Assembly (NCBI RefSeq): GCF_004342425.1
Contig: NZ_SLWQ01000005.1
Coordinates: forward strand, 62,001-126,000
Source of the DNA: Dokdonella fugitiva
GTDB taxonomy: Bacteria > Pseudomonadota > Gammaproteobacteria > Xanthomonadales > Rhodanobacteraceae
Reading direction: 5' to 3'
DNA: 64,000 nt
Made by a program: the position numbers and the translations under genes. How positions within the stretch are numbered: the stretch's first letter is position 1; every line of letters starts with the position of its first letter. Shown here piece by piece: positions 54,362-57,809 of this stretch. The notes beneath the pieces were generated by a model. That model saw only the letters and a list, made by a program, of their open reading frames with translations. It did not search any database and had not been told where the DNA came from.

Positions 54362-54964
54362 CTACTTCTGCTTCCAGGCGCCGGAAGAGTCCTGATAATA
54401 CCAGCCGGGGCGCGCCTGCTGGATCCATTGCCGGGCGAACGTGTCGCGGATCTGCGCCTCCCACTCGGCGTGGCCGTTGGCGAGCGCGATCTCCCGGTAG
54501 ACCGCCTGGCGATCGCGGTTCTCGTCCGCGATGGCCGCATTGAGCGCGGCACGTTCCGCGAGCGGCACGCTGGCGGCGTCACGCATCGCGACGAGGCCGT
54601 CGCGCGTGAAGCCGACCGCGCCGCTCGCGCAGTATTTCGCCAGCGCCGAGGCGAAACGCTGGCGCATGCGCGCCTGGATCGCCTGGATCTGCGGCGACTG
54701 GATCGTGATGTCCGCGCCCTGCGCATGGGCGCTCGGCACGACGAGGTCGAGCAGCATCGCGGCGGGCGACCGCCCCGGCGGCGGCTGGGTCGACGGTTCG
54801 GGCGCCGGCTGCGACTGTTCCGCCGCCGCGCCGATCACCTTGTCGACGAACTGCTCGGCGGCCTTCTGCGCGGCGGCCTCCGGGAAATAGACATTGATCG
54901 TGACGCAGGCGGCCGGCAGCGCGAGCGCGGCGGCGAGGACGGACCAGCGGAGGACATGGCGCAT
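54362..54964 (-). CDS. Lipoprotein with YdbL (DUF1318) domain and YnbE-like N-terminus
   Basis: The 200-residue protein has a signal peptide with lipobox LPAAC (Cys 20). The mature N-terminus reads VTINVYFPEA, a short beta-strand like the ITINMNV segment of E. coli YnbE. A Pro-rich linker containing a second signal-like stretch (SPAAMLLDLVVPSAHAQ) follows. The C-terminal DUF1318/YdbL domain has FTRDGLVAMRDAASVPLAERA and NGHAEWEAQIRDTFARQW. In E. coli ydbH, ynbE and ydbL are separate and act together at the envelope. Here one protein follows ydbH by 31 bp, and no separate ynbE is present. The fusion reading is inference. Confidence 0.82.
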   Translation of the reverse strand: MRHVLRWSVLAAALALPAACVTINVYFPEAAAQKAAEQFVDKVIGAAAEQSQPAPEPSTQPPPGRSPAAMLLDLVVPSAHAQGADITIQSPQIQAIQARMRQRFASALAKYCASGAVGFTRDGLVAMRDAASVPLAERAALNAAIADENRDRQAVYREIALANGHAEWEAQIRDTFARQWIQQARPGWYYQDSSGAWKQK

Positions 54965-54995
54965 CGATGGATCTCCCGTGTGCGGACAACCGCGA

Positions 54996-57809
54996 TCATT
55001 CGATGACCGGGCCGCTGCCGCGCGTCGCCTCGACGAGCCGCCGCACCAGCGTAGGCCAGTCGACGCGGCGGCGATGGCCGACGATCGTGATGCGTGGCAG
55101 GCCCGATCCTTCGACGATAGTGTAGCCGTCCGTCGATTCGCCGGCGCCGCCGGCGACGACCGCGACCGGGATCGGTTCGATGCCGCCCATCGCGCAGACG
55201 TCGTCGCGCAGGATGCAGCGGATGCCGAGCCGGCGATAGCCGAAGGTGTCGAACAGCTTCAGGGCCATCGTCTGCAGGTTCGCCGACAGCCCGCCACCGC
55301 CGCCGATCGCGGTGAGGTCGTTGACCGCCTTGTAGCTCATGCGCCCACCGCCGTCCGTGCGCAGCCATGCGTCGAACGCGACCGGGCTCCAGTCGACCAG
55401 GCGTACGCCGCCGATCGTGCCGGACAGGCGCCCGCTCATGCCGCCGAACGAGAACGCGCGCGTGACCTGCTCGAGGTCGAGGTTCTCGAAATGCGCATCG
55501 GCCGAAAGCGACGGCGCGACGCCGAACGGCCGCTCCAGGGCGAGGCCGCTCAAGCCGAGGTGGCCGTCGAATGCGTACAGGTCGAGACCGCCGCGGAATT
55601 CGATGCGCTCCCCGGCGAATTCGATCTCGGGGATGCCGCCGGAGAGCTTGCCGGGGAAGCGCGGCCATCCGAAGACGTCCGACAGCCGCGCCATGTCGAT
55701 GCCGCCGAGCGCGAACGAGGCGGTGTAGCGGTTGCCGCGCGGCGAACGCGGCTGCGCGGTGAAGCGTTCGAGGCGCAACTGGCCGCCGAGCACGTCCACG
55801 GCGAGCGGCTGCGCGAGCGTGATCGTGCCGCCGCGTGACGCGAGTCCTGCGCGCGCAGGTCCGAACGGCAGCTCGAAGAGCTCGAGCGCGCGCCAGCCGA
55901 ACGAGGTCGCCGGCCGGTCCCGCGCGACGTCCCAGTCGATCGTCCCGTCGAGGCCATCGAGCGTGAAGCGACCGGCGCCGTCGCGCACCGTGACGTCCTC
56001 GGCGGACGCAGCGAAGCGGCGAAGCCCGGCGCGGTCGAGTTCGACCTGGCCGCGCAGGCGCCCGGCGGCCGCGAGTTCGCCGTAGCCGTGCGTGGCGAGC
56101 CAGCTCCGTGCGTAACGTTGCAGCGCAGGACCGAGGCGTGCGTCGTCGAGTTCGAGCCTCAATGCCTGCAAGGGCGGCGTCGCGAGCGGTGCGAACTCGC
56201 CGCTCGCGACGAAGGCGAGCACGTCCGGGTCGTTCCATGTGAAGCGCTCGACCTGCCAGCGATCGGCGCGCATGACGAGGTCGGCGGCGACGGCGACGGG
56301 CTTGTCCGGCAGGCTCACGTAGAACGCGCCGGCGAGCGCTTCGCCGCCCTGCAGGCGCGCGTCGAGGCGGAAGCGCGGCTCGCCTGCATCGACGTCGACG
56401 CGCAATTCGCCGTCGGCACCGACGTGCGCGGCGGCGAGCGTGCCGTCGGCGTTCTCGTAACCGAGTCGTTCGGCGCGGAAGTGCGTGGCCGCGCGCATGC
56501 CGGCGTCGGCGAACGGCCGCAGCACGGTCCGTTCGAACACGAGCGTGCCGCCGGCGAGCGCGGTACGCAGCGCGCCCTGCAGCTCGAGCGAGCCGTCGCG
56601 CGCGCGCCAGCTCGAGTGCGCCGGCCCGAGCACGACGTCGCCGGCCTTCACCTTGCGCCAGGCGAGCGACGTCGGCGCGCCCTCGCCGCTCGCGCGCCAA
56701 TCGAGGCTGCCGGCGATCGCATCGATCGCGAGTGCGCGCGCGGGATCGCGAACGTCGAGCGCGTCCGTCGACAAGGCGAGTCCGCGCAGGCGGCCAGCGT
56801 CGATGTCGACGCTGCCGCGCAGGCGGCCATCGAGGGCCAGCCCGCCGAGGCCGTGCGCAGCGAACAGCGTCGCGGCGTAGCGCTGCTTCACCGCCGGGAA
56901 CACGAGCTCCGCCGACGACACGGACAGCGCGCGCAACGGTGCCGCCGCGGCCGGCTCGAATTCGCCGCGCGCTTCGAACGCGAGCACGTCCGGATCGCGC
57001 CAGGCGAAGCGTTCGACCGCCCAGGTTCCATCCTCGCCGACGCGCGCGTCGAGCGCGATGTCCACCGGCGTGGCGGGCAGCGCGACGCGCAGCGCGCCGA
57101 CCTGCAGCGTGCCACCCCCAGCCTGCAACCCGGTCGTGATCCGCCGCGACTGCGCGGACGCGGACGTCGCGAACGAACCGTGCAACGCGAGGCCCTCGGC
57201 GGCGAAACTGCCGTCGAAGGTGCCGGCACGCACGCCGTCGGCCGCGAACGTGGCATCGATGTCGCCGTCGCCGTGCCAGCGGACCTGCGCGTCGATCGTG
57301 CCGGAACGGATGTCGCCGCCCCTCCAGGCCAGCGCGAGCGGCGCGCGCAGCCAGTCCGCCGGCACGCGTTGCAGGCGCGCGGTCGGCGCGAGGCCGTCGG
57401 CGAACGGCAGCTCGAGCGTGATGCTGCGCTCTCCCTGGTCGAGGCTCAGTGCCAGCTGCGCGCGCTCGCTGCGAACGCGCAGCGCCGCGCGTGCTACCCC
57501 GTGTTCCGAATGCAAGGCCACCGGGCCTTCGCAGGCCGACGCCCGTTCGTCGACGCGCCGCAGCGTGCACGACCACTCCAGGCGGCCGTCGAGCCCGAGC
57601 GTGGCGCTGTGCAGCTGCTCGATCGCGAGCGTGAGGGCGGCGCCGGCAGGTGCAGGAACCAGACGGAAGTGGATGCCACGCGCATCGACGTGCGCGTTCG
57701 ACGCACGCGCAAGCTCGATCGACAGCTCGCGCCCGGTCGCCGTCGACGCGAACGCCACGGTGAGCAGTGGGACGACCAGCGACTGCGTTGACGGGCGGCG
57801 CATCGCCAT
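54996..57809 (-). CDS. ydbH: YdbH-like AsmA/TamB-type intermembrane protein
   Basis: The 937-residue protein has an N-terminal membrane/signal segment (SLVVPLLTVAFASTATG). It is otherwise beta-rich with repeating units such as VERFAWRDPDVLAFEARGEF and VERFTWNDPDVLAFVASGEF, and a conserved C-terminal region (VNDLTAIGGGG, DTFGYRRLGIRC). This is the YdbH/AsmA-like plan of a long groove thought to carry phospholipids between the membranes, redundant with TamB and YhdP in E. coli. The ATG at 57809 has GAGG 8 bp upstream. The YdbL-like lipoprotein follows in the operon and probably binds its C-terminal end. Confidence 0.9.
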   Translation of the reverse strand: MAMRRPSTQSLVVPLLTVAFASTATGRELSIELARASNAHVDARGIHFRLVPAPAGAALTLAIEQLHSATLGLDGRLEWSCTLRRVDERASACEGPVALHSEHGVARAALRVRSERAQLALSLDQGERSITLELPFADGLAPTARLQRVPADWLRAPLALAWRGGDIRSGTIDAQVRWHGDGDIDATFAADGVRAGTFDGSFAAEGLALHGSFATSASAQSRRITTGLQAGGGTLQVGALRVALPATPVDIALDARVGEDGTWAVERFAWRDPDVLAFEARGEFEPAAAAPLRALSVSSAELVFPAVKQRYAATLFAAHGLGGLALDGRLRGSVDIDAGRLRGLALSTDALDVRDPARALAIDAIAGSLDWRASGEGAPTSLAWRKVKAGDVVLGPAHSSWRARDGSLELQGALRTALAGGTLVFERTVLRPFADAGMRAATHFRAERLGYENADGTLAAAHVGADGELRVDVDAGEPRFRLDARLQGGEALAGAFYVSLPDKPVAVAADLVMRADRWQVERFTWNDPDVLAFVASGEFAPLATPPLQALRLELDDARLGPALQRYARSWLATHGYGELAAAGRLRGQVELDRAGLRRFAASAEDVTVRDGAGRFTLDGLDGTIDWDVARDRPATSFGWRALELFELPFGPARAGLASRGGTITLAQPLAVDVLGGQLRLERFTAQPRSPRGNRYTASFALGGIDMARLSDVFGWPRFPGKLSGGIPEIEFAGERIEFRGGLDLYAFDGHLGLSGLALERPFGVAPSLSADAHFENLDLEQVTRAFSFGGMSGRLSGTIGGVRLVDWSPVAFDAWLRTDGGGRMSYKAVNDLTAIGGGGGLSANLQTMALKLFDTFGYRRLGIRCILRDDVCAMGGIEPIPVAVVAGGAGESTDGYTIVEGSGLPRITIVGHRRRVDWPTLVRRLVEATRGSGPVIE

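Follow-up and report, generated by a model that had tools for sequence, protein, structure and literature searches.

The route of phospholipids to the outer membrane has long been an open question. In Escherichia coli, the ydbH-ynbE-ydbL genes encode, in this order, the AsmA-type protein, the lipoprotein module and the DUF1318 module of a proposed inter-membrane lipid bridge. YdbL is chaperone-like (its molecule name in the PDB is 'Probable chaperone-like protein YdbL'), and its role is, in our judgement, the least known part of the YdbH system. Here, the window, a stretch of 64,000 nucleotides from Dokdonella fugitiva (contig NZ_SLWQ01000005.1, positions 62,001 to 126,000), raises the question of how the system is built when only one lipoprotein gene follows a gene for a YdbH-like protein. 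The data suggest that the counterparts of the two small E. coli helpers are apparently made as one lipid-anchored protein, in the window and in many relatives. This protein rather likely serves a divergent YdbH-type protein for lipid transport as its partner at the outer membrane, and joins a YnbE-position module and YdbL in one polypeptide.

The original prediction, drawn from the sequence, placed one lipoprotein after ydbH across a 31-bp gap without ynbE, and the coordinates agree (Table 1). The signal peptide of the lipoprotein ends LPAAC and is followed by VTINVYF, a helix, a Pro/Ala-rich linker and the DUF1318 domain. Residues C20, V21, T22, N24, Y26, F27 and P28 are invariant across 45 aligned proteins (the window protein and 44 relatives). 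The window protein has Pro at lipobox position -3, which is atypical of the consensus; relatives have, for example, ALVGC or LLSAC. Val after the acceptor Cys (+2) predicts outer-membrane sorting. The fused protein would be lipidated at Cys20 and located in the outer membrane.

The C-terminus had been assigned to the DUF1318 domain of YdbL, and this assignment holds. Residues 103-200 match PF07027 at 79.7 bits, over the cut-off of 27. In an AlphaFold model built from the 45 aligned sequences, the predicted local distance difference test (pLDDT) gives block values of 96-99 for residues 91-200 and 97 for block 31-40, inside helix 29-44; linker blocks 51-80 have values of 64-66, and residues 19-28 are coil. 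A Foldseek search with this model returned a single solved structure at E <0.001, E. coli YdbL (28oj, E 5.7e-4), which VIA-align superposes with Z 9.7 and a root-mean-square deviation of 2.0 over 86/87 residues. Together, the profile match, the pLDDT of the model and the fold match identify this part of the protein as YdbL.

Relatives in which the same two modules are split inform the nature of the fusion. Four loci (L110-L113, in genomes G425, G473, G463 and G219) carry the modules as two adjacent genes. The first encodes a lipoprotein of the CVTINIYFPAA type with 36-46 mature residues and ends 0-61 nt before ydbL; this CVTINIYFP-type module is the one seen in the window protein. The second encodes a YdbL of the same DUF1318 subtype but, unlike in the window, has its own signal peptide. 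The YdbH-like gene adjoins L112 and L113, and its family is present in all four split genomes. In trees, the fused and split rows and one further lipoprotein (L098) fall together on the same side of a branch (98/88), and classical YdbL lies on another (99/95). Trees of 104 and 118 columns do not show whether fusion or splitting happened earlier; the split rows as a single clade are not rejected (approximately unbiased test, p 0.235).

The arrangement is a real and, in the order sampled, common variant of the YdbH-YnbE-YdbL system. DUF1318 is present in 84 of the 121 genomes examined from this order. Ten of these, all of family f8, have PF13617 (YnbE) and PF11739 (YdbH) over cut-off, together with a short YdbL bearing its own signal peptide; the other 74 of the 84 have no PF13617 match over cut-off. 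The N-terminus was read in 52 of these 74 (the window's own, 50 loci and G113) and is of the CVT[IV]N lipoprotein type in 52/52, the remaining 22 being taken as fused because they lack PF13617 over cut-off and, in most of them, the open frame is long. PF11739 is just over cut-off in G106 (28.2 vs 26.3 bits), elsewhere than its lipoprotein. A named scan gave 80 loci, all fused, which is a selected count, as the scan patterns included the motif; at least 578 of its 596 candidates encode relatives. Its sources are Lysobacterales (Dokdonella, Dyella, Rhodanobacter, Luteibacter, Lysobacter, Luteimonas and others) and metagenome-assembled genomes named only Proteobacteria, Gammaproteobacteria or Pseudomonadota. 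Comparison across the order, the check proposed with the original prediction, thus finds the fused form to be the common one in the sample, not a rarity.

The YdbH-like family follows the lipoprotein closely. With family profile A3 (threshold E 1e-10), it is found in 75 of the 121 genomes: 73 of the 74 lipoprotein genomes; none of the 10 classical ones; and two others (G060 and G080). The Fisher p of this co-occurrence is 1.3e-29, uncorrected for genome relatedness. The YdbH-like gene lies directly upstream of the lipoprotein in 40/57 loci of one set and in 74/80 named-scan loci, with a median gap of 42 bp (n=114); some of the loci without it are truncated by a contig boundary or by too little flank, as is the window's own copy (L002). 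Both genes may also be apart in one genome, for example in G037, G084, G009 and G104. Co-occurrence despite separation is the best evidence that the lipoprotein and the YdbH-like protein work together. With the split relatives and the lack of any separate ynbE found over cut-off, it upholds the proposal that one lipoprotein fills the places of YnbE and YdbL.

If this explanation is correct, the mechanism would likely involve: export of the lipoprotein, lipidation at Cys20 and sorting to the outer membrane; presentation of the CVTINVYFP strand and helix to the YdbH-like protein; and delivery of the YdbL domain to the same place in a 1:1 ratio, where it would control the YdbH-like contact in cis. 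The linker stretch that resembles a signal peptide would be the counterpart of the one on the separate ydbL of split relatives. Contact with YdbH, control in cis and a role in phospholipid traffic are inferred parts of this scheme. Because YdbL and the YnbE-position module share one anchor and a fixed ratio in this natural fusion, the idea of a cis-chaperone becomes directly testable.

Several observations weigh against this explanation. PF11739 has no match over cut-off in the window protein or in any of eight relatives (8/8), with an E. coli YdbH control at 969.8 bits. Single-sequence scores place AsmA and TamB level with several YdbH proteins and above E. coli YdbH, and by profile-profile comparison (hhalign) the family also aligns with AsmA-like proteins found beside another lipoprotein type (80.5%, E 1.3e-5). 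Among genomes, G113 has the lipoprotein although no YdbH-like gene was detected there, and G060 and G080 keep the YdbH-like gene without DUF1318. The literature searched yielded no experiment linking the YdbH-like family to lipid transport. Two further points, a lack of sequence likeness to YnbE and a lack of modelled strand pairing, concern the N-terminal module and are taken up with it below.

Other comparisons favour YdbH. The hhalign match of the family to classical YdbH reaches 96.6% (E 6.5e-10, 198 columns). Iterated hidden Markov model (HMM) searches reach five classical-type proteins from the window protein, and members of the YdbH-like family from E. coli YdbH, each with a risk of drift. 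Weak PF11739 matches below cut-off fall at the YdbH-like gene in G071 (E 8.8e-4) and G074 (E 0.0039). The source genome has one TamB, one YhdP and no PF11739 match at E 0.01; for the window protein itself, Pfam gives no match and NCBIfam nothing of note. From these comparisons, the protein appears to belong to the same superfamily, with YdbH as its best fit and orthology as the probable relation. Confidence in the overall explanation was kept moderate because the single-sequence scores do not favour YdbH over AsmA or TamB.

The YdbH-like protein also differs from E. coli YdbH at its N-terminus and in length. AxA occurs within residues 16-34 in 91/106 YdbH-like proteins vs 13/38 classical ones, and the median 19-residue hydropathy of the N-terminus is 1.87 vs 2.23; start codons for both counts were chosen by script, some visibly wrongly. 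For the window protein, the KD19 hydropathy is 1.22 vs 2.95 in E. coli. In fused-type loci outside the class, the N-terminus is anchor-like in all four that are readable. In place of a membrane anchor, the window protein apparently carries a signal peptide that can be cleaved off, which may leave it without attachment to the inner membrane. This would challenge a simple picture of a continuous bridge. A compact variant of the bridge had been predicted: the single lipoprotein at the places of YnbE and YdbL stands, and the bridge itself calls for caution, given the apparent lack of the anchor. An internal duplication, its copies 39% identical over 197 columns, lengthens the window protein to 937 residues from a family median of ~673. 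In G110 and G031, too, the family profile aligns as two overlapping pieces. Near the C-terminal end, C865 and C872 are invariant in 29/29 (A2) and 9/9 (A3) aligned proteins, and a disulfide at this presumed contact end is possible.

The next question is whether the N-terminal module is YnbE. The genome (35 contigs; computed completeness 100) has no PF13617 match over cut-off, one match at chance level (E 3.8) and none to the window lipoprotein; DUF1318 matches over cut-off once, and the N-terminal module occurs once. No separate ynbE homologue was therefore found over cut-off, and the proposed fusion survives this check. The CVTINVYFP module could be a homologous, true YnbE, truncated and diverged, beyond a mere positional equivalent. 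Consistent with this idea, L112 and L113 encode a short lipoprotein module as its own gene between ydbH and ydbL, the place of YnbE, and YnbE and this module share the build of a short lipoprotein, a [VI]TIN-type strand and then a helix; in the window, the module lies after the ydbH-like gene, fused to ydbL. Against it, hhalign gives a probability of 1.0%, and HMM scores in both directions lie inside the range of shuffled decoys, leaving the predicted resemblance of VTINVYF to the YnbE strand undetectable by these methods. Homology is a tentative reading, somewhat more doubtful than not. By place and size the module corresponds to YnbE, while by its letters it does not, and this, with the union of lipoprotein and YdbL in one protein, sets the arrangement apart from that of E. 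coli, which it resembles in gene order, YdbL fold and the profile relation of the YdbH parts.

For E. coli, passages of PMC12045153 propose strand augmentation between the YdbH C-terminus and YnbE, and a passage of PMC12977461 has YdbH interacting with YnbE as an outer-membrane lipoprotein. An equivalent pairing of the N-terminal strand with YdbH had been predicted for the window. A tethered model was made of L163, in which the YdbH-like frame reads through into the lipoprotein. Here, the module is coil at block pLDDT 36-57, which lends the pairing no support; as this model is weak (29 alignment rows, one chain, no classical positive control), the result is not taken as a refutation. A fold search with it returned long beta-sheet proteins (LptD, ApoB100, teneurin) at low TM-scores and was uninformative.

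The linker holds the second signal-like stretch that had been predicted (LLDLVVPSAHA, residues 71-81), and its conservation shows that this is not chance. By alignment, the AxA at residues 79/81 is shared by 127 of 130 distinct fused proteins; of the three exceptions, L178 (an alignment gap) and L045 (one residue off) still show AxA, and L099 has VQA. The best 8-residue hydropathy upstream of AxA averages 2.15 (n=129) vs -0.12 for the first 20 linker residues (n=130); the lipoprotein signal peptides at the start of these proteins reach 2.67, and the signal peptides of separate YdbL proteins 2.80. Over 10 residues the linker stretch has 1.71 vs 2.60, and a polar residue (Asp, Ser or Asn) often interrupts the core. 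The stretch looks like a shortened signal peptide with its cleavage motif kept, and it is accounted for by the split relatives because their second gene has its own signal peptide.

Either signal peptidase I cuts at the linker AxA, which we regard as doubtful, or the motif has another fixed role. If cut, the fused protein would be a precursor of two products: signal peptidase II would act at Cys20 and signal peptidase I after A81, releasing soluble YdbL and leaving a short lipidated peptide at the YnbE position, as in split relatives and E. coli. The aligned AxA would suit such a precursor, as would the poor conservation of most of the linker before it, a hydropathy nearer that of true signal peptides than that of the early linker, the low pLDDT of this region in the model, and the match, by eye, of the AxA position to the expected signal-peptide cut in the YdbL of split relatives. 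Against cleavage, the hydrophobic core is short and often polar within; signal peptidase I would meet an internal signal peptide behind a segment already exported, which is not its usual topology; the conservation, seen in 130 related proteins, does not amount to 130 independent events; the stretch may have a structural role; and a literature search for an internal signal peptide in a lipoprotein gave no precedent. On this balance, a two-product precursor is rather unlikely but a live hypothesis. Even so, the nearly invariant internal Ala-x-Ala makes it testable whether one precursor gives two envelope proteins. An internal translation start in the fused frame was considered as a general mechanism and rejected: Met70 occurs in only 38/130, and a start there would leave a signal peptide of very few residues. 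More speculative still, and improbable at present, would be an envelope 'polyprotein', in which the two signal peptidases yield equimolar amounts of two products, a YnbE-position peptide held by its lipid and YdbL as a free chaperone. Both would serve a YdbH-like lipid carrier without an inner-membrane anchor of its own, whose only attachment would thus be on the outer-membrane side.

Finally, that the DUF1318 lipoprotein has nothing to do with YdbH in function, neighbourhood and co-occurrence reflecting shared ancestry only, is very improbable: the lipoprotein gene does lie apart from the ydbH-like gene in several f10 genomes, and two genomes keep ydbH-like without DUF1318, but co-occurrence in the sample is near one-to-one with the unlinked cases included, and classical operons and the split relatives L112 and L113 have the same gene order.

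Table 1. Features of the ydbH-like/lipoprotein locus (positions in the window)
Feature	Position	Strand	Evidence or remark
Lipoprotein coding sequence, 200 aa: type II signal peptide, N-terminal module, linker, DUF1318/YdbL domain; apparently fused	54362-54964	-	
Predicted type II signal peptide and acceptor Cys20 (LPAAC)	54905-54964	-	Cys20 invariant in 45/45 aligned proteins
N-terminal module CVTINVYFP and helix, residues 20-44, at the place of YnbE	54833-54907	-	Type shared with the small lipoprotein that L110-L113 encode separately
Internal signal-peptide-like stretch AMLLDLVVPSAHA, residues 69-81; AxA at residues 79-81 (54722-54730)	54722-54760	-	AxA alignment, hydropathy
DUF1318/YdbL domain, residues 103-200	54365-54658	-	PF07027, 79.7 bits; fold match to E. 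coli YdbL 28oj
31-bp intergenic gap without ynbE	54965-54995	-	
YdbH-like AsmA-type protein, 937 aa, gene directly upstream of lipoprotein gene	54996-57809	-	
Signal-peptide-like N-terminus of YdbH-like protein, residues 1-26, apparently replacing the E. coli membrane anchor	57732-57809	-	Hydropathy and inspection by eye
Internal duplication in YdbH-like protein, copies at ~56478-57068 and 55713-56300	55713-57068	-	39% identity, 197 columns
Cys pair C865, C872 near C-terminal end of YdbH-like protein	55194-55217	-	Invariant in the alignments made

Beyond the order, DUF1318 is present in 122 of 398 genomes of a phylum sample. Sixty loci from outside the order were chosen non-randomly and so give no frequencies; one (L148) gave no match, and the other 59 comprise: 6 fused; 4 split; 10 of a CGGPLLEV lipoprotein type; 1 of another type (L098); and 38 short proteins without a lipobox. 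The ten (L100-L105 and L150-L153) resemble the window protein in having a lipobox and a gene directly after a long AsmA-like open reading frame, and differ in their CGGPLLEVTLVDERTALENQ-type N-terminus and in forming a separate group (8/10 in the tree, 100/99). Lipidated YdbL seems to have arisen more than once. In 10/10 of these loci the lipoprotein gene overlaps the AsmA-like frame by 4-29 nt (script-chosen starts). L098 (genome G142) groups with the fused type, has another lipoprotein N-terminus (CATTQPQF) and adjoins a dehydrogenase-like gene; G142 has no YdbH-like match at E 1e-5.

In the literature, the ydbH-ynbE-ydbL locus appears in a figure legend of PMC8593681 and YnbE in one of PMC11784454; within the papers searched, DUF1318 is named in a single one, whose title concerns the hemp rhizosphere; the available passages of a Pseudomonas AsmA paper (PMC10900882) do not name YnbE. 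A YnbE/YdbL fusion was not found in the titles and passages searched, which did not cover the key paper, Kumar et al. 2024 PNAS.

Some loci depart from the usual neighbourhood. In L042, L046 and L048 (family f10), the fused lipoprotein gene is apart from the YdbH-like gene, which lies elsewhere in the genome, and is preceded by a gene that we take to be radA-like. L238 (G080) and L239 (G060), of one family, show no DUF1318 lipoprotein in the stretch at the YdbH-like gene, which is followed by a presumably rlmD-like gene. Within family f8, L074-L083 have the classical ydbH-ynbE-ydbL and other genera carry the fused type. The classical YdbL of f8 groups with two from another class (f49, L115 and L117; 96/86) which, given the fused type in the other f8 genera, suggests operon transfer or replacement.

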